Assembly: GCA_017622795.1 (NCBI GenBank)
Contig: JAGAQI010000044.1
Location: forward strand, 1-56,934
From: Lachnospiraceae bacterium
Lineage (GTDB): Bacteria; Bacillota; Clostridia; Lachnospirales; Lachnospiraceae
DNA length: 56,934 nt
Direction: 5' to 3'
Shown here piece after piece: positions 4,312 through 12,422 of the stretch. Positions within the stretch are counted from its first letter, which is position 1, and every line of letters starts with the position of its first letter. A program made the translations under genes and the position numbers. A model generated the notes under the pieces. It was not told where the DNA came from. It saw only the letters and a list, made by a program, of their open reading frames with translations, and made no database searches.

Positions 4312-4752
4312 TTACTCCTGAAATTTTCCCTGAAAGGTTTTTAAATCCTCTGTCATCTGTTTTGCGGACAAATAGTTTTGTAACCAGTCAGATAAGGTTG
4401 CCAAAACAAAGATAACCAGAATGCTGAGCGCAACCGCTCCGATTAGCCAAGGAGAACGGTCCGCTTCTGCAGAATCGAAAAAAATTGCAAACAGCACACA
4501 GGCTTCCGTTAACAAAAATTGGATTATTTTCCGCAGAATCAGTTCTCCGACTTTTAGTTCCCGTTTTGAATACAGGGCTAAATTCGGAAGTGTGCCTGCC
4601 AAGCCGTAAATAACTGGGATAATGAACCCTTCATAACCAAATTTTGTATCCGGCATCAAGGTAACACCCATCAGAAACATAGCAATATTAATCATGGCAA
4701 CTATCGTAAAAAACGTACGGATACAATCCGCCAGAAATTCTTTTCCATGCAT
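4312..4752 (-). CDS. DUF3021 membrane protein
   Basis: About 146 residues with four predicted membrane helices (TFFTIVAMINIAMFLMGV; FIIPVIYGLAGTLPNL; FLLTEACVLFAIFF; LIGAVALSILVIFVLATL). The arrangement and its place directly after a LytTR regulator identify DUF3021, a partner that typically modulates the adjacent LytTR protein. I chose ATG at 4752 (MHGKEF), which has AGGGTGG at a proper distance and follows the LytTR stop by one base; the upstream GTG codons lie within the end of the LytTR gene. Confidence 0.85.
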   Translation of the reverse strand: MHGKEFLADCIRTFFTIVAMINIAMFLMGVTLMPDTKFGYEGFIIPVIYGLAGTLPNLALYSKRELKVGELILRKIIQFLLTEACVLFAIFFDSAEADRSPWLIGAVALSILVIFVLATLSDWLQNYLSAKQMTEDLKTFQGKFQE

Positions 4753-4753
4753 G

Positions 4754-5197
4754 TTACACACCACCCTTCAATGCTGCCTTCAACGCCGGCACATATTTTC
4801 TTGAAATAATGATTTCCTCACCGCTTTGTAATACCGCAGTAAAGCGACCGTTTAAAGCAGGTTTGATAGAATCTACCTTCATCAGGTTTAACAGCAATGC
4901 TTTGGATACCCGAAGGAAAAATTTATCTTTTAACAATTCTTCCAGTTCATACAATTTCTGCTTCGTTTCATATACCTGCTTCACTGTGTACAGAAACACC
5001 TTATTATCCACTGCCTCAATATAACACACATCCGGTAGCGGCACCTCAAACTGACGGTCCTCCATAGTGCCGGTAAGACGCCCCTGCCTTGTCTTTACGA
5101 AAGCAATGATTTCTTTCACTTCCTCCGTAATTTCATGACAGCGGATTTCCATTTGCTCCGGTTGTTCTTTTGGTATTTTCAACAATTTTATTACCAT
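4754..5197 (-). CDS. LytTR DNA-binding transcriptional regulator
   Basis: A 147-residue protein whose C-terminal ~100 residues are a LytTR domain (VCYIEAVDNKVFLYT, YELEELLKDKFFLRVSKALLLNL, ISRKYVPALKAAL). It has no receiver domain, so it belongs to the stand-alone LytTR group paired with DUF3021 membrane proteins, which usually autoregulate or respond to envelope or quorum cues. A ribosome binding site AGGAAGGAT precedes the ATG and overlaps the end of the upstream hydrolase gene. Confidence 0.9.
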   Translation of the reverse strand: MVIKLLKIPKEQPEQMEIRCHEITEEVKEIIAFVKTRQGRLTGTMEDRQFEVPLPDVCYIEAVDNKVFLYTVKQVYETKQKLYELEELLKDKFFLRVSKALLLNLMKVDSIKPALNGRFTAVLQSGEEIIISRKYVPALKAALKGGV

Positions 5198-5200
5198 GGA

Positions 5201-6331
5201 TTAGTATCCTTCCTGAACCACCACTTCTCCCATATCCTTTAAATAACAGTTATAGAAGTCCAAAACTAACTGATTCATCGTAATTACACATTCTTCCGGG
5301 TCAATGGTACCGATGCCGAGCATCTTCGCCAGAGCCGGAGAAAACAGCGGCAGGTCTGTAAAATTCATATGTCCGCTACCCTTGAAATACGTATATTTCG
5401 CATCTTTGGCATTAGCAAGCACCCAGCTGTTCACGTACCAGTCTGCCAAATCCTGCCCTTCAAAATAATGGGCTTCATTGCTGACGGATAATAACGGTAC
5501 CGGATATGCTTCATCATAAAAATCATACTCCCCGTTGTTATAACTAAACTGCTCGCCAAGCATCGTACCATCCAAATCGATAACCGCATCAATATCCTCC
5601 CTGGTTCTGCCCACCGTAACACTGGCAGCACCACCCATGGAATGACCCATAAGACCGATATGTTCCGTGTCCGTCATGGAAAGAATCCCCCGGATAGTTT
5701 CCGCGGAAGATTCTTCTTTTATAAACCAGCAGGCCGGAAGTTCCGCCCCTTGCTCCTTCGCTGCCTTTACACTATCCAAGACAAAATTCATATCTGCCGT
5801 TCGGATGTCCAGCCAGCCATGGGACAACTCGATAATCTCCTGCTCCGGCGTTCCCATCTCATTGATATACATTACTTCCTGCATAAATTGGGGATTTACA
5901 ATAATTGTTTTTCCGGAAGTATCCTTTGTAAAAAAGGAATGATACGGATGGTCCAGACTGATTACCACATAACCGTTGCTGGCAAGTTCCATGTAGGTGG
6001 AAGTATTACTCTGATAATAGCCAAAGGCTCCGTGAGAAAAAATAACCAACGGAAATGATTTTTCACCTTCTTCCTCCGGCACTTCCGGATAGTAAAAATA
6101 CACCGGAACCTCACGTTTGGAACCATCGGTTTCAAAGGCTTCCACCCGGCTTTCATCCACCAGAATAGCGGATGCCATCTGAACCTTATACGGTCCGGTT
6201 GTCGGCAGACCAGCATAATCGGAAAACAAAAGTTTAGGAATTAATACAATTGCCAATAAAATCAGTGCAGCAATACTGCCTAAGACAATCCATAACACCT
6301 TTTTCGATTTTTGTTTGTTTTTATGTTTCAT
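5201..6331 (-). CDS. Membrane-anchored alpha/beta hydrolase
   Basis: About 376 residues. A basic N-terminus (KHKNKQKSKK) and one membrane helix (VLWIVLGSIAALILLAIVLI) anchor a catalytic domain on the outer face. FSHGAFGYYQS supplies the oxyanion region, GHSMGGAAS is the nucleophile elbow, DLDGTM and the late GSGHMNF histidine complete the triad. The fold resembles platelet-activating-factor acetylhydrolase and chlorophyllase/dienelactone hydrolase types, so an ester substrate is likely but unknown. ATG at 6331 is preferred to an upstream GTG because it has AAAGGAAAGG at a proper distance. It is followed closely by the LytTR-DUF3021 pair and may be in the same operon. Confidence 0.82.
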   Translation of the reverse strand: MKHKNKQKSKKVLWIVLGSIAALILLAIVLIPKLLFSDYAGLPTTGPYKVQMASAILVDESRVEAFETDGSKREVPVYFYYPEVPEEEGEKSFPLVIFSHGAFGYYQSNTSTYMELASNGYVVISLDHPYHSFFTKDTSGKTIIVNPQFMQEVMYINEMGTPEQEIIELSHGWLDIRTADMNFVLDSVKAAKEQGAELPACWFIKEESSAETIRGILSMTDTEHIGLMGHSMGGAASVTVGRTREDIDAVIDLDGTMLGEQFSYNNGEYDFYDEAYPVPLLSVSNEAHYFEGQDLADWYVNSWVLANAKDAKYTYFKGSGHMNFTDLPLFSPALAKMLGIGTIDPEECVITMNQLVLDFYNCYLKDMGEVVVQEGY

Positions 6332-6437
6332 TATAATCACCTTTCCTTTCTTTGATACGATGACTATAATCGGTATTTTTTTCTAAATCAAGGCTTCTGC
6401 GGGTAAGATGCATTTTACCGCAATAAGATGCAAATAA

Positions 6438-7574
6438 TCACAGTATTTCACCATGTTTTATTTTTTGAAACATACAGACGGCCGCACCAAAATAAAGTTC
6501 TTCCGCCCGGGCAAGAGCCTCGGAAACCGGCATATCATCCGGAGCGGTTTTTACAATGGCGGTAATGCCATGCTGTAAAATCTGTTCTGCCCCGGTACCT
6601 GTACTTCCGACGAATGCTATCGCAGGAACACTTCGCTTTTTACATCGCAGACCAACACCCTGTACGACTTTTCCAAAGCAGGACTGCCAGTCTAACCGTC
6701 CTTCTCCGGTGATTACCAAAGAAACATCCTGCAGCCTGGAATCAAACGCAATCAAATCAAGTACCGTCTCGCTTCCGGGCTTCATCCGTGCTTTTAAAAA
6801 TACCGCCAGTGCTCCTCCAAGTCCTCCCGCTGCTCCGGCACCGGAAAGCTCATCCAAATTTATTCCGAACTCTTTTATAATCACATCCCGGTAATTGCAC
6901 ATGCCCTCTTCCAACCCGTCAAGAAGCTGCGGTGTACCGCCCTTTTGCGGTCCATAGGTATAAGTGGCACCGTTTTTTCCGCAAAGCGGATTGGTTACAT
7001 CACAGATAACGGTAAAGGAGGCTTCCTTTACCTGTGGCAACATGCCGGAAGTATCAATATGAGCTACCTGCTTCAAATTATCTCCCACGCCGGTAAGTTC
7101 CTGACCGTTTTTATCCAAAAAACGTACTCCCAGTGCGCACATACAGCCCATACCGCCATCATTGGTAGCTGAACCGCCAATAGCAATGGTAATATCCTTG
7201 CATCCCGCCTGTAATGCGGCCGCAATCAGTTCTCCCGTTCCATAGGAAGTGGTTGTTGCCGGATTGTACTCTGCCTCGGTAAGAAGCGGTAAGCCGGAGG
7301 CTGCTGCCATCTCTATAATCGCCCTGTTTTCATCGATTCTTCCGTAAGATGCCTGCAGACTTCGCATCAATGGGTCATGTACCTCTAACATAACCTTACT
7401 GCCGCCCATAGCGGAAAGCACCGCATCCGCCGTGCCTTCTCCGCCATCTGCTACAGGCACACCGCTGCAACTGCATTGCGGAAATACCTGTTTTGCCGCT
7501 TTGGTCAGCAGCTCTGCTGTTTTTTCACAGGATAAGGTTCCTTTGAAGGAATCCGAGGCAAACAAAAATTTCAT
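6438..7574 (-). CDS. Glycerate kinase
   Basis: A 378-residue glycerate kinase of the GarK/GlxK family, which phosphorylates D-glycerate to 2- or 3-phosphoglycerate. Visible signatures are FASDSFKGTLS at the N-terminus, VADGGEGTADAVL, IGGSATNDGGMGCMCALG (substrate loop), and the C-terminal VITGEGRLDWQSCFGKVVQGV. Length is normal for the family. It is a lone gene with binding site AGGAGA; no glycolate or glucarate genes are near. Confidence 0.95.
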   Translation of the reverse strand: MKFLFASDSFKGTLSCEKTAELLTKAAKQVFPQCSCSGVPVADGGEGTADAVLSAMGGSKVMLEVHDPLMRSLQASYGRIDENRAIIEMAAASGLPLLTEAEYNPATTTSYGTGELIAAALQAGCKDITIAIGGSATNDGGMGCMCALGVRFLDKNGQELTGVGDNLKQVAHIDTSGMLPQVKEASFTVICDVTNPLCGKNGATYTYGPQKGGTPQLLDGLEEGMCNYRDVIIKEFGINLDELSGAGAAGGLGGALAVFLKARMKPGSETVLDLIAFDSRLQDVSLVITGEGRLDWQSCFGKVVQGVGLRCKKRSVPAIAFVGSTGTGAEQILQHGITAIVKTAPDDMPVSEALARAEELYFGAAVCMFQKIKHGEIL

Positions 7575-7694: not shown

Positions 7695-7892
7695 TTACTT
7701 TAAGTTGATGCTGTAAGTTACTTCGTTAACAACGTAGTAAGCCTTGCCATCTTCCGGCTTAACATAAATCTTAGCGTCTGCCATTTCCTTAACCTTGTTG
7801 CCCATAGCAACCCAGTCAGCCTTAACAGCCTTTACAATTTCATCAGCGTTGAAGCTGTCACCGGCATACTCGAAAAATAAATTCTTAATCAT
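7695..7892 (-). CDS. Small DUF6465-like protein
   Basis: A 65-residue acidic protein (MIKNLFFEYAGDSFNADEIV...YVKPEDGKAYYVVNEV) that I recognise as resembling DUF6465, a small protein common in Lachnospiraceae with no assigned function. It has a strong binding site (AAAAGGAGA), its own promoter and its own terminator, so it is expressed as an independent unit, probably at a high level. Confidence 0.75.
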   Translation of the reverse strand: MIKNLFFEYAGDSFNADEIVKAVKADWVAMGNKVKEMADAKIYVKPEDGKAYYVVNEVTYSINLK

Positions 7893-8046: not shown

Positions 8047-9033
8047 TTACCTCACTTCCAGGAACCTTGTCAAAAACAATACATCCTTCAGATGTTTTGC
8101 TTCCCTGTACACATAGAGCACCACTACAATGCCGTCCTCACCATCGGCCCGGAAGATAAACTCACAGCGGTAACCGTCACCGGCTTCCAGGGCATTTTTG
8201 AAAACACCGTCATAGTAGTTATATTCCTCACCATAATAGGTCATAACCCTCTTCGTCGGAAAAATTCCCACATTACCTAAAATATTTTCCACAATCGCCT
8301 TTTCTATCAGCTTGGTTTCGTCGGAATCACCGGCGAAGGCTAATTGTGAGTTGTTGTCAAAATAGCAGACAAACAAGGATTCCGGTACGGAATCAGCAGG
8401 ACTCAGTTTATTCAACACATACTGATATCCTTCCATGGTACCGAGATTTTCATCCTTAACGCTGTGCTGAATTTTATCATTTACCCAGGTGGACGGAATA
8501 TAGTATTCCACCCCACCGTTATTTATAGTAACCTTCGTTGCGTTCCGCTTATTATACTCCGTACCGTCCTTTAAATAGTACATGTCACTTGATAAAGCTG
8601 ATGCCGGCAAGGCAGTAAATTTGTCCACGGTAAAATAAACATCTCCGGTAAACAATCCCACCGAGATACTTCCGTACAGTGCTACTTTGGTTCCTGTCTG
8701 ATAAGTTTTTGCTGTGGAGCGCAGGCTCCGTTCGCAAGTACATTCCAGTGTCAGGGAAGTATTGCTAAGGCCGGTAACCGTAAGGTTCTTACCATCCTTA
8801 TCCACGCTTACCACCTGACCGTATAACAGCACCGGCTGGTTATTATATTTTGTTTTAGCTGCTTTGCTGTTTGCTGTAAATTCTGACACAATTTCGTCCG
8901 CAGTGCGATATTGGTACACTTTATTATTTTCTGTGTCAACCATTACCTTGGTACCGTCAAACCAGCCTGCTCCGCAGAAGGAGAGGCACACACACAGCGC
9001 CATAATGATTGCCGTGATACGCTTTTTGTTCAT
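8047..9033 (-). CDS. Secreted protein with OB-fold (tRNA_anti-like) domain
   Basis: 328 residues with a signal peptide (about 1-22). Residues about 65-140 (VLLYGQVVSVDKDGKNLTV...GTKVALYGSISVGLFTGDVYFTVDKF) look like the tRNA_anti-like OB-fold found in many secreted Firmicutes proteins, where it is not known to bind RNA. The C-terminal half (about 165-328) is unassigned and begins with a short VEYYIPSTWVND strand typical of PsbP-like or secreted beta domains. It is the last gene of the ExbB/ExbD-like operon, 12 bases after its neighbour, so it may be an effector or substrate of that complex. No catalytic motif is visible. Confidence 0.7.
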   Translation of the reverse strand: MNKKRITAIIMALCVCLSFCGAGWFDGTKVMVDTENNKVYQYRTADEIVSEFTANSKAAKTKYNNQPVLLYGQVVSVDKDGKNLTVTGLSNTSLTLECTCERSLRSTAKTYQTGTKVALYGSISVGLFTGDVYFTVDKFTALPASALSSDMYYLKDGTEYNKRNATKVTINNGGVEYYIPSTWVNDKIQHSVKDENLGTMEGYQYVLNKLSPADSVPESLFVCYFDNNSQLAFAGDSDETKLIEKAIVENILGNVGIFPTKRVMTYYGEEYNYYDGVFKNALEAGDGYRCEFIFRADGEDGIVVVLYVYREAKHLKDVLFLTRFLEVR

Positions 9034-9045
9034 GCTGCCATCCTC

Positions 9046-9552
9046 CTACTCTACCGTATATTTTAATTCGATTTCCGCTTCCAAATCACTCAGAAGCTTT
9101 AACATTTCACGATATACATGCGCTTCTGCATAATCATCCACCAACCGGAAGGTGGTACGTTCATCATGATCCCTGCGCAGCTGTGCCGTAAGAATATCCA
9201 AATCCGGCCATGGCACATAATTATAGGTTATCTGTTCGCCACGGACACGGATTTCCTGAATCCTTGGTTTTGCCGGCAGATCCGGTTTTGGTGTAACCGT
9301 TACCTTCGGCGTTGGCTTTGCCGTCGGCTTTGGCGTTACACTGGTCATAGGAACCGGCGTTGCTGACGGATTCGGCGTCTCTTTGCCAATATCCTGAACC
9401 ATATCGTCTGCTCCCAGTTTACAGTTTCCGATGGCTGCGCTTAAATCTATTAACTTTTTATCACTCAGCAATTCTACTTTTTTCTGCCCCCAGCCGGCCA
9501 AAACCAGCAGAACGGCAATTGCAAGCAGGAACAGCACTCTTTTTCTTTTCAT
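9046..9552 (-). CDS. Membrane-anchored protein with Pro-rich linker and ExbD-like outer domain
   Basis: 168 residues: one N-terminal helix (VLFLLAIAVLLVLAGW), a Thr/Pro/Lys-rich linker (about 58-92) that could cross the cell wall, and a C-terminal domain (about 95-168, IQEIRVRGEQITYN...LDILTAQLRRD...TFRLVDDYAEAHVYREMLKLLSDL). The strand-helix-strand-helix layout resembles the extracytoplasmic domain of ExbD/TolR, although the family is not certain. It lacks the charged TM helix of true ExbD. Its start overlaps the previous gene by four bases, indicating translational coupling. Confidence 0.6.
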   Translation of the reverse strand: MKRKRVLFLLAIAVLLVLAGWGQKKVELLSDKKLIDLSAAIGNCKLGADDMVQDIGKETPNPSATPVPMTSVTPKPTAKPTPKVTVTPKPDLPAKPRIQEIRVRGEQITYNYVPWPDLDILTAQLRRDHDERTTFRLVDDYAEAHVYREMLKLLSDLEAEIELKYTVE

Positions 9553-10136
9553 CGTGTTTCCTCGTAATCAATTCCCATTTCGTTTAACATATCCTTTACC
9601 CCGCGATAAAGGGAACTGACGGCAAAACTGTCAATTATTATTACCGTGTTTTCTCTTTTTATTTCTGTCAGTCTGGTTTTCAATTCTAATAAATCTGCAC
9701 AGGTTTCTCCGCTCAGACTGACTTTATCACCGGCTACCAGCACATAATAAGTATATGCCTTTCCGTCTTCCGCCACAAACTGACCGTTTTCATTAATGGC
9801 ATCCCAGGCCATGGTTTCCGTTGCAATCCGGTCCGGAAACAGTTTACGGTACAGCCAGAAATTTTCACCCTTTGCGGCGTAGCCAAGATATAAACCTGCG
9901 AAAAACATCAGGATTCCTGCAAAAATAGCAACAATAAAATCCCGGATTAAGTTCTTTTTTTCATACCAGACCTGCTTCCCGATTTCCGGGTCCATCCGGG
10001 CTGAAAGGATTTCTTTGTCTTTATCATAAACAACTTCAAACCGTTCAAAGAAAGGCAGTACCCACAGGGAAATCAGACCAAGTACACCAAAAATCACAAG
10101 CAGGCCACCTACAATTATCAGAGTCCAAGGTATCAT
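9549..10136 (-). CDS. Two-helix membrane protein with ExbD-like outer domain
   Basis: 195 residues. Two membrane helices (about 4-28 and 66-88) flank a cytoplasmic loop; the rest is outside. The end, VSLSGETCADLLELKTRL...NTVIIIDSFAVSSLYRGVKDMLNEMGIDYEE, follows the ExbD/TolR outer-domain pattern of a helix, a V-x-I-x-x-D strand and a Y-x-x-V-x-x-x-M-x-x-x-G helix. It is not annotated by any family I can name with confidence. It overlaps the neighbours on both sides by four bases, so it is tightly coupled to the ExbD-like gene. Confidence 0.62.
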   Translation of the reverse strand: MIPWTLIIVGGLLVIFGVLGLISLWVLPFFERFEVVYDKDKEILSARMDPEIGKQVWYEKKNLIRDFIVAIFAGILMFFAGLYLGYAAKGENFWLYRKLFPDRIATETMAWDAINENGQFVAEDGKAYTYYVLVAGDKVSLSGETCADLLELKTRLTEIKRENTVIIIDSFAVSSLYRGVKDMLNEMGIDYEETR

Positions 10137-10678
10137 TTTTCCTCCTCATGTATGCTTCCGCGGATATAAACGTTGTTATATTCCTTTGTAAGCTCATAAA
10201 AAATATCAGTAACCATGACCTCATCCCGGTACAAAATAGTATCGTCTTTCTCATTTAAAGAAAGAATTACCGGTCGGTCTTTATTTGCTTCCACAAACTT
10301 TACCAGGCTATCCCGGAACGCTTCTACGGAAGACTTCACGTTATTTCCTACCAGGTCAAAGCTTTCGATTTCTTCGCCCTCTTTTAAGATTTGGATCGTT
10401 CTTCTTGTAACATCTTCTTTGTCATATGGTACCACAACCGATACAGCAAACACATATTGGTTGATATTATCTGCTATTTCCAATTGCTGTTCATAGAGCT
10501 TTTGCTCCGCCTCCGTTTGGTTTTTTGCAGATTCTGTTTCTGCCTGGGCCTGTTTCAAATTGGTTTCCACCGAATTCTGCCCCCACATAACAATCAGTAA
10601 TATAATAAATATGACATCCAAAAGCGATGTTAAATCAATCAGCACATCGCCCTTTGCGCCTTTTTTTCTTCTCCGCAT
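10133..10678 (-). CDS. ExbD/TolR-like proton-channel partner protein
   Basis: 181 residues. A short basic N-terminus leads into a helix, IDLTSLLDVIFIILLIVMWG, which corresponds to the ExbD helix with its essential membrane Asp (here Asp21, matching Asp25 of E. coli ExbD). A coiled-coil stretch rich in Glu/Gln/Ala (about 38-70) and an outer domain with VILSLNEKDDTILYRDEVMVTDIFYELTKEY follow. In the family this subunit forms, with ExbB, an ion channel that turns proton-motive force into mechanical work. It follows the ExbB-like gene by 18 bases. Confidence 0.8.
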   Translation of the reverse strand: MRRRKKGAKGDVLIDLTSLLDVIFIILLIVMWGQNSVETNLKQAQAETESAKNQTEAEQKLYEQQLEIADNINQYVFAVSVVVPYDKEDVTRRTIQILKEGEEIESFDLVGNNVKSSVEAFRDSLVKFVEANKDRPVILSLNEKDDTILYRDEVMVTDIFYELTKEYNNVYIRGSIHEEEK

Positions 10679-10696
10679 GCTTTCACTCCCCGGAAT

Positions 10697-11251
10697 TTAT
10701 TTTTCTTCTTGGAACTTTTTAAACATTTCCGCAATGTTTAATTTCTTGTCAAAATCATCCAGCATAACCTCTACGTCATAAATAATTCTGGATGGGAATA
10801 CCGCCTCAATTACCTTTAACAAAATAGCAAAAATCAAGCCCCAGAAAGTAGTGTCCAGCGCCGTGTTCAGAGAGGTCATCATAGCCTCAATTCCACCACC
10901 CTGGACCTGAAGCATAAGACCTGCCACCGTACCGAGAATACCAAGCAATGGGAATACCGGAATACACTGTACCAGCACACCGTGCCAGGAACATTTTGTA
11001 TTAAATTCGGTTTCATATTTACGGATGGTGTCCGGGGTGATAGCTGCCGCCTCATCTTCATTTTCTTCCATTTCCTTGGAATCCACATTCAGTGTATAGG
11101 TATTGTTTTTACGCTTCAGCGCTTCCTCAATGCGGTTTTTCTGGTTGGAAAGAGCGATACCGTTCCAGAATAATAATATAGCAACCGCTATACCAAAAAG
11201 CACAATGCCCGCCGTTCCGTATTTTGAAATAAATTCCAACATAAATCCCAT
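10697..11251 (-). CDS. MotA/TolQ/ExbB-type proton channel protein
   Basis: 184 residues with three helices (about 13-33, 95-118 and 128-152). The segment VFPLLGILGTVAGLMLQVQ, followed by LNTALDTTFWGLIFAILLKVIEAVF, is the core MotA/TolQ/ExbB signature of the pore-forming helices. Members form pentamers around an ExbD/MotB dimer. It is somewhat shorter than E. coli ExbB. As the first gene of a five-gene operon with its own promoter, it defines the unit. No TonB, TolA or flagellar genes are in the window. Confidence 0.85.
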   Translation of the reverse strand: MGFMLEFISKYGTAGIVLFGIAVAILLFWNGIALSNQKNRIEEALKRKNNTYTLNVDSKEMEENEDEAAAITPDTIRKYETEFNTKCSWHGVLVQCIPVFPLLGILGTVAGLMLQVQGGGIEAMMTSLNTALDTTFWGLIFAILLKVIEAVFPSRIIYDVEVMLDDFDKKLNIAEMFKKFQEEK

Positions 11252-11429: not shown

Positions 11430-12422
11430 GTGAAACCTGCGGAACTGAAAACCATATTTGAGCTCATAAAAAAAGCCGGCATTCATCCCGCACCGGAAAC
11501 CCTGTCCCGGGAGGAGCTGGATGTCCTGTCTAAAGATCCGGATGCCAAAGTAAAACTGTTCCGCGCCCTGGGCGGCACCGGCATTAACCTGCACCAGGAG
11601 CTGGAAATGTCCTCTCCTTACGTAAATACCCACCGGGATACCAGCTATAACCCGGAAAACCTGCAGCTTCACAGTCATGCTTTTTTTGAGCTCATTTACT
11701 GTGAAACCGGCACCGTCCAGTATCTGATTGGAGATACCCGTTACCGTATCCATGCCGGTGATGTGATTCTGGTTCCTCCGGGCATCAGCCATCGTCCTAT
11801 CTTTTACGATGAAATGCCGGAACCCTACACCCGTATTGTTCTTTGGATTAGTTCCGACTTTTTCCACACGATTGCAGAAATCTGTCCGGAAGAGCTTCGG
11901 AGCCAACTCCGTCTGAAAGAACATTTTCTTCTTCGCACCGAAGGTACCCCTTATAAATACCTGGGAAAACTTTTTCAACGGGGTGTGGAAGAAGCCACCT
12001 TGCAGGCTCCCCTATGGGAGATGGCTCTTTGCGGCAATACCACAAACCTGCTGGCAAATTTAGGCCGTGCTTTAATGTCCACCGACACTTATTTTCCTGC
12101 AGAACAAAGGGAAGACATTGACGAAGTTATCTCCTATATTGAAAAAAATTACAGCAACCGTATCACATTAGAGGAAACCGCGCGGGAATTCCATATCAGT
12201 ACCAGTACCCTCAGCAAGCTGTTTTACAACAGGCTTCACATCAGCTTTTACCATTTCGTTACCCAGCGGCGTTTAATCAATTCCAAATTAAAAATAGAAG
12301 AAGGCAGCTCCATGGAAGAAGCTGCCCTGTCCTGTGGCTTTTGCGATTACTCCGCCTTTTACCGTGCTTTTAAAAAAGAGTACGGGATTTCTCCGAAGGA
12401 GTATCGGAAAATCATACTTTAA
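11430..12422 (+). CDS. AraC-family transcriptional regulator with cupin sensor
   Basis: 330 residues starting at GTG with a strong site (GAGGAGGT). An N-terminal segment of about 85 residues is followed by a cupin-like sensor domain (LHSHAFFELIYCETGTVQYLIG...AGDVILVPPGISHRP). The last 100 residues hold two helix-turn-helix units ending in ALSCGFCDYSAFYRAFKKEYGISPKEYRK, the AraC signature. Such regulators usually sense a sugar and control nearby glycan genes; the convergent GH127 gene is an obvious candidate target. Its 3' end overlaps that gene by four bases. Control of the divergent ExbB operon is also possible. Confidence 0.92.
   Translation: MKPAELKTIFELIKKAGIHPAPETLSREELDVLSKDPDAKVKLFRALGGTGINLHQELEMSSPYVNTHRDTSYNPENLQLHSHAFFELIYCETGTVQYLIGDTRYRIHAGDVILVPPGISHRPIFYDEMPEPYTRIVLWISSDFFHTIAEICPEELRSQLRLKEHFLLRTEGTPYKYLGKLFQRGVEEATLQAPLWEMALCGNTTNLLANLGRALMSTDTYFPAEQREDIDEVISYIEKNYSNRITLEETAREFHISTSTLSKLFYNRLHISFYHFVTQRRLINSKLKIEEGSSMEEAALSCGFCDYSAFYRAFKKEYGISPKEYRKIIL

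Follow-up and report, generated by a model that had tools for sequence, protein, structure and literature searches.

A five-gene operon of Lachnospiraceae predicted to encode an ExbB/ExbD-class proton motor with additional outer subunits in hosts that apparently lack an outer membrane

The contig JAGAQI010000044.1 of a Lachnospiraceae genome (GCA_017622795.1; 56,934 nucleotides, the whole of which is referred to here as the window) carries on its minus strand, at 8047-11251, a tight operon of five genes, P1 to P5, whose sequences make it probable, if by a small measure, that they encode a functional proton motor which belongs to the ExbBD/TolQR/MotAB class, has outer parts of composite make-up and works in a host lacking an outer membrane. 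ExbBD motors are usually seen as machines that serve that membrane. The class to which the core is assigned is a known one and the composition appears to be new, so that the operon would represent an undescribed variant; among the matches listed in open PMC full text, a scope that leaves out preprints and subscription journals, there was no description of the five-gene set. All five open reading frames (ORFs) were found where the initial annotation had placed them, with intergenic gaps of 18, -4, -4 and 12 bases along P1-P5. Searches of the five proteins against NCBIfam and PADLOC gave weak matches only.

The core of the operon is formed by a channel and an axle. P1 scored 37.5 bits against PF01618 (MotA/TolQ/ExbB; cut-off 22.9, E 2.3e-9) and P2 scored 28.1 bits against PF02472 (ExbD/TolR; cut-off 25.4, E 2.4e-6), which upholds the earlier assignment of an ExbB/MotA-type channel and of an ExbD-like protein with a membrane aspartate, Asp21. 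Asp21 and Thr17 of P2, like Thr108 and Thr135 of P1, are invariant in all 14 loci at which the full set was inspected (13 carriers in the family, the window included, and L001, from a Lachnospiraceae metagenome-assembled genome), and the two threonines of P1 align with Thr148 and Thr181 of E. coli ExbB when positions are counted along the alignment. A search of PDB sequences with P1 returned both MotA and ExbB, the best match being the flagellar stator protein MotA (8gqy), and the same search with P2 aligned its transmembrane (TM) segment with those of TolR and ExbD, the best match being that of TolR (E 0.04, weak alone). By these sequence measures two features of the ExbBD/TolQR/MotAB class, a channel domain and an ExbD/TolR partner with a membrane aspartate, are both predicted in the operon above the curated cut-offs. 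P1 nevertheless differs from the stator protein MotA in having 184 amino acids (aa) and three hydrophobic segments, and 10 of the 13 carriers possess a separate frame of about 270 aa with a far stronger match to MotA_ExbB.

P1 is also set apart from the ExbB proteins of the phylum. In a tree of 51 channel proteins, comprising 30 ExbB rows of the phylum that adjoin a Pfam-recognised ExbD, the 14 cassette rows, the relatives described below from three-gene operons and other rows, with flagellar MotA left out, the 30 ExbB rows form one group (95/86), from which every one of the 14 cassette rows is excluded. A branch of 20 rows (98/91) unites the cassette rows, which are not resolved as a single clade, with the three-gene relatives (two rows) and four rows of long MotA-like proteins; a fifth other row, L097, is placed next to the 30 ExbB rows and has a long branch. 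Four loci (L098, L099, L100 and L101, from G357, G331, G052 and G193) hold two-gene pairs of a MotA-like protein of 462-525 aa and a coiled-coil partner that resembles MotB/OmpA by eye; these pairs are orphan motors unlike the cassette, and no effector was noticed by eye in the 5.6-11 kb examined.

The hosts appear to be monoderm and to lack an outer membrane, as the initial annotation had expected. Omp85 (PF01103) was found in none of 15 genomes (the 13 carriers with G450 and G751, the hosts of the three-gene operons), the control being positive in 7 of 14 known genomes, and TonB_C (PF03544) was found in none of the 8 carriers tested, the control being positive in 3 of 14. Because both are absent, the operon falls outside the Ton and Tol systems as defined, whereas its motor core falls within their class. 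With the Ton system (ExbB-ExbD-TonB) it shares an ExbB-type ring and an ExbD-type axle with a membrane aspartate, and a linker protein such as P4 could fill the role of TonB; it differs in its hosts, in the position of P1 in the tree and in the addition of two ExbD-like outer domains and an exported OB-fold protein. TolQ-TolR-TolA belongs to the same motor class; the operon differs from it by its extra subunits and by hosts in which the marker searched for, Omp85 (Pal and TolB lying outside the search), gave no indication of an outer membrane.

The set is sparse in the family but closely kept where it occurs. A profile of P5 matched 21 of 397 family genomes, of which 13 hold all five genes and 8 gave weak matches; 5 of these 8, together with a second match in G357, were examined and proved to be OB-fold proteins whose surrounding stretch holds no motor genes, and the remaining G081, G123 and G259, at E near 1e-3, lie outside the inspected set. 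A search with P2 matched 7 of 150 family genomes, all within full sets, and within the genus the cassette is carried by 2 of 4 genomes, the window's included. The five genes stand in the same order in all 14 loci, including L041, where the P4 gene is in place and had been missed by the first P4 profile. Identity to the window ranges over 20-97% for P1, 26-87% for P2, 17-73% for P3, 15-64% for P4 and 23-82% for P5; when 13 loci are compared pairwise, identity averages 30, 31, 23, 25 and 27% respectively, and the least similar pairs of loci share 13-22%. The five proteins co-diverge: their distance matrices correlate at r 0.84-0.93, a value that 2000 permutations did not reach for any of the 10 pairs. 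Selection was estimated by the Nei-Gojobori method from one pair, the window and L095 (which comes from the same genome as L001, itself counted as one genome with the sampled G1065), for which synonymous divergence (dS) is 0.93-2.2 and near saturation. Nonsynonymous divergence (dN) is 0.021 for P1, 0.062 for P2, 0.184 for P3, 0.255 for P4 and 0.111 for P5, P3 and P4 thus being the fastest of the five, and with dN far below dS all five genes are under purifying selection in this pair. Given the same genes in the same order in every inspected locus and dN well below dS in this pair, the operon is not a chance arrangement. In G111, two contigs (C37 and C63) carry cassette copies with equal match scores, and in both a single stop codon (TAG) was marked within the P2 match; they could be a duplication or assembly redundancy, and the C37 copy is the one inspected.

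Beyond the family, shorter forms were found. A P1-type profile gave three strong matches in 381 genomes of Clostridia, namely the window, G450 and G751; the matches ranked after these, at 1e-10 or weaker, are mostly frames the size of MotA. A P2 profile run on 391 genomes gave the same three with one weak match, G774, at whose locus there is no ExbB-ExbD pair. The Pfam ExbD model recognised the window only among 321 genomes of Clostridia, and since the ExbD of G450 itself falls below the cut-off, this model is insensitive here; across the phylum it matched 75 of 299 genomes, all but the window outside the window's class. G450 and G751, of two other families of Clostridia, carry three-gene operons (L085 and L086) of ExbB, ExbD and a protein with a hydrophobic segment and the outer domain of P3 and P4; unlike the cassette, they have no second domain protein, and no P5 was seen in the examined stretch. 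It had been proposed that finding the genes apart in related genomes would speak against a single system: within the family neither P2 nor the strong P5 matches occur apart from the set and the order is constant, whereas in the two other families the motor genes do occur without P5.

The operon has a pair of extra subunits, P3 and P4, neither of which matches a Pfam family. The two hydrophobic segments of P3 are present in all 14 loci, and the basic loop between them is probably cytoplasmic. P4 has one N-terminal hydrophobic stretch, which passed a 19-residue scan in 13 of the 14 loci (that of L010 being below threshold) and could be a membrane anchor or a signal peptide. Acidic residues occur only at the edges of the hydrophobic stretches of both proteins and not in their cores, and therefore neither should carry protons. 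The linker of P4 is 29-64 residues long over the 14 loci; three of them (the window, L001 and L044) have a Pro-rich linker and the others one that is mostly acidic or Ser/Thr-rich, and the suggestion that a Pro-rich linker reaches through the wall was accordingly abandoned. An N-terminal docking segment shared by P4 and P5, seen by eye, was likewise rejected, the match covering 4 columns with a score of 9.1.

The C-terminal outer domains of P3 and P4 are, by profile comparison, homologous to each other (hhalign probability 98.6%, E 9e-16). Their relation to ExbD was examined against a canonical set of 17 ExbD outer domains, taken from 30 loci by a filter that accepted plus-strand ORFs only, with 35 overlapping natural windows cut from four other alignments as controls. 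The P3 domain scored 26.5 over 56 columns (best control window 15.0), the combined P3/P4 domain 22.7 over 63 columns (15.8), the outer domain of the operon's own P2 23.6 (16.0) and the P4 domain alone 15.6 (12.8), so the P3 domain matches canonical ExbD as well as the ExbD of the operon itself does. The best of 100 column shuffles for the combined domain was 13.9, and the best of 30 was 15.3 for P3 and 16.2 for P2. When 455 ORFs of 35 other loci were searched with a profile built from 28 P3/P4 domains, the two best matches were the third proteins encoded by the three-gene operons, that of L086 (E 2.1e-10) and that of L085 (E 6e-6), followed by a list in which 9 of the next 13 ORFs stand at canonical ExbD positions (E 0.03-2, none significant alone). 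The third protein of L085 also has a weak PF02472 match (E 0.019) that falls in the part with the outer domain. On the hhalign scores of the P3 and the combined domain, which exceed the controls, together with this ranking and the PF02472 match of L085, the relation of the P3/P4 outer domains to ExbD is considered likely but unproven.

P5 is the probable exported partner. Its N-terminal part scored 26.6 bits against PF12869 (an OB-fold, tRNA_anti-like family; cut-off 23.5), a family that 8 of the 14 P5 members match with E no worse than 0.01, and the description of P5 as an OB-fold protein is borne out; that it is secreted is probable from its N-terminal hydrophobic segment. Its conserved C-terminal domain is, very tentatively, a candidate for a PsbP/Mog1-like fold. 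LptC was considered as a relative (E 0.001) and rejected, as the match vanished once the N-terminal hydrophobic segment was removed. By eye, two loci, L046 and L050, encode a small exported OB-fold protein similar to the N-terminal portion of P5 next to a kinase-like and a small regulator-like gene.

A possible sixth member is found beside half of the operons. A gene of the AIM24 family (PF01987; E 6.7e-36 for the copy of L014) adjoins the operon in 7 of the 14 loci, being divergent in L044 and separated by one acyltransferase gene in L042. In a search of 16 genomes the seven operon-adjacent copies scored 1e-36 to 1e-44 and nine matches elsewhere scored 1e-60 to 1e-75, except one at 3e-18; G135, whose operon has no AIM24 neighbour, had no match anywhere. 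The loop of P3 is 38-47 aa long in the seven operons without this neighbour as opposed to 9-22 aa in the seven with it. However, the former seven form one supported clade (99/99), and because this may reflect a single evolutionary event the link between loop and AIM24 is only suggestive.

Several observations weigh against a motor with composite outer parts. The site of ExbB Glu176 holds T, V, I, L or P in the relatives of P1, glutamate not being kept; P4 may be secreted instead of anchored; and the cassette is sparse (13 of 397 family and 2 of 4 genus genomes) and therefore not a housekeeping machine. The profiles of P3 and P4 gave no significant match to P2 in profile comparison, their domain gave no significant ExbD match among PDB sequences or in Pfam, PF02472 was reached by 1 of 14 P3 members (E 0.09) and 1 of 30 domain members (E 0.024), and the P4 domain alone scored 15.7 where the best of 30 column shuffles scored 17.1, so that its own match to canonical ExbD is not convincing. 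Of the two further ExbD-patterned membrane proteins seen in the initial annotation, the shared domain and the match of P3 thus stand, whereas P4 alone and the direct searches do not sustain the claim; as the shuffle control on P4 lowers and the ranking of 455 ORFs raises the case for the domain, our estimate is unchanged. It is possible that P3 and P4 are unrelated accessory proteins whose small alpha/beta domain merely resembles ExbD, as the direct searches and the P4 shuffles would allow. This is rather unlikely given that collinear matches of 56-63 columns to canonical ExbD exceed all 35 control windows and 100 column shuffles, that in the domain ranking the places directly after the two true relatives are rich in canonical ExbD ORFs, and that a domain protein occupies the same place in the three-gene operons. 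A vestigial or recently imported, non-functional Ton system is suggested by a survey in which the Ton systems occasionally found in monoderm Clostridia are considered likely non-functional (PMC12204202), and a review holds that the function of Ton orthologues in Gram-positive bacteria remains to be tested (PMC9389320). For this operon such decay is highly improbable because dN/dS is low for each of P1-P5 in the pair tested, the gene order persists across loci that have diverged to as little as 13-22% identity, P1 stands apart from the 30 ExbB rows and TonB_C is absent from the 8 carriers.

Two further explanations retain the channel and give it a signalling role. In one, the complex is a gated proton channel for the control of membrane stress, in which the outer domains sense contact with the wall and AIM24 reads the state, with no mechanical output. 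The AIM24 gene beside half of the operons and the longer basic loop of P3 where it is missing would fit such a device, but the operons without AIM24 are a single clade, which makes that link weak, and a signalling device leaves P5 unexplained; we regard this as unlikely. In the other, which we hold to be a little less probable again, the operon is a motor-coupled sensor or a phage-defence device like Zorya that detects envelope damage and signals inside the cell. ZorAB is described as a 5:2 motor outside Ton, Tol and flagella with a patchy distribution, and the patchy presence of the cassette, its AIM24 neighbour, the CD1107-like mobile-element protein near the L015 copy and the genes upstream of L011 (VWA-like, below the cut-off, macro-domain and nuclease) would all be in keeping with defence. 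However, P1 lacks the long cytoplasmic tail of ZorA and the operon multiplies instead its outer parts, the extra domains being predicted outside the cell; PADLOC gave only weak matches of ZorA to the channel part of P1 and none to P2-P5; and no ZorC/ZorD-like effector was noticed in the 14 loci, which were viewed by eye with unequal flanks and without a model search.

Features of the operon in the window (positions of the forward strand).
Feature	Position	Strand	Description
P1	10697..11251	-	ExbB/TolQ/MotA-type channel, 184 aa, three hydrophobic segments (hydropathy)
P2	10133..10678	-	ExbD-type axle, 181 aa: one TM, charged stretch, outer domain
P2 Asp21 codon	10616-10618	-	membrane Asp
P3	9549..10136	-	195 aa, two hydrophobic segments, basic loop between, outer domain at residues ~126-195
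P3 outer domain	9552..9761	-	likely ExbD-like (hhalign)
P4	9046..9552	-	168 aa: hydrophobic segment at the N terminus, LIDL stretch (conserved), linker (variable), outer domain (residues ~97-168)
P4 outer domain	9049..9264	-	homologous to P3 outer domain (hhalign)
P5	8047..9033	-	328 aa: N-terminal hydrophobic segment, OB-fold, conserved C-terminal domain
Promoter-like site 5' of P1	11297..11325	-	TTGACA, 17, TACACT; consensus match only

The region holds 15 promoter-like sites, compared with 8.9 (standard deviation 3.0) in shuffles. An ORF of 65 aa lies 3' of P5 on the same strand (7695-7892), preceded by a promoter-like site at 7975-7946 and followed by a terminator-like hairpin at 7662-7635. 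By eye, the flanks encode DUF3021-like and LytTR-like proteins, a hydrolase and a glycerate kinase (4312-7574) and an AraC-type regulator (11430-12422). These flanking genes have no tblastn match in L095, where the same outer neighbours bracket the cassette, and hence the flanks differ between close relatives and the cassette stays; in G288 and G1066, cassette-free genomes of the same genus, a synteny comparison found no clear orthologue of the neighbouring AraC-type gene. Other recurrent neighbours are few, being a small regulator-like protein in 3 loci (in L011 part of the macro-domain protein) and a Ser/Thr kinase in 2, and at L013 and L015 both kinase and regulator lie near the cassette (kinase identity tested for L015). 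In G116 the CD1107-like protein (PF14283) and a DUF5688 protein are encoded ahead of AIM24 and the cassette (L015:2288-5172), and this cassette may be the cargo of an integrative element. No relative of the cassette was found in viral contigs, searched with one pattern, or in plasmids, searched with P1 only.

In the motor that we favour, P1 would form the ring and P2 the axle, which by analogy with its family would take protons on Asp21. P3 and P4 would add two ExbD-type outer domains that may pair with each other, with P2 or with both, giving a composite outer head, and P4, with its single N-terminal segment, flexible linker and folded end, would act in the role of TonB or TolA so that motion could reach either the exported P5 or the wall. 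Outside the window's clade, in half of the carriers, a presumably cytoplasmic protein of the AIM24 type would belong to the set. The gene content, the motifs, the linkage, the purifying selection in one pair, the lack of Omp85 and the homology of the P3 and P4 domains come from the sequences themselves; the complex, its rotation, its transmission and its target are what we infer. A fuller form of this proposal, in which a machine spanning the monoderm envelope uses a head of three different ExbD-type domains to drive an exported wall effector, with a cytoplasmic AIM24 partner that is perhaps ancestral, is put forward tentatively, as plausible but short of an even chance.

If this fuller form is correct, it would add a further use of this motor class to those in Ton and Tol systems, in flagella and gliding, and in Zorya. 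The operon would also be an example from nature of outer domains of the axle type carried on separate subunits. A conserved, selected and expanded motor in gut Lachnospiraceae would make a surface role of proton motors in single-membrane cells testable.

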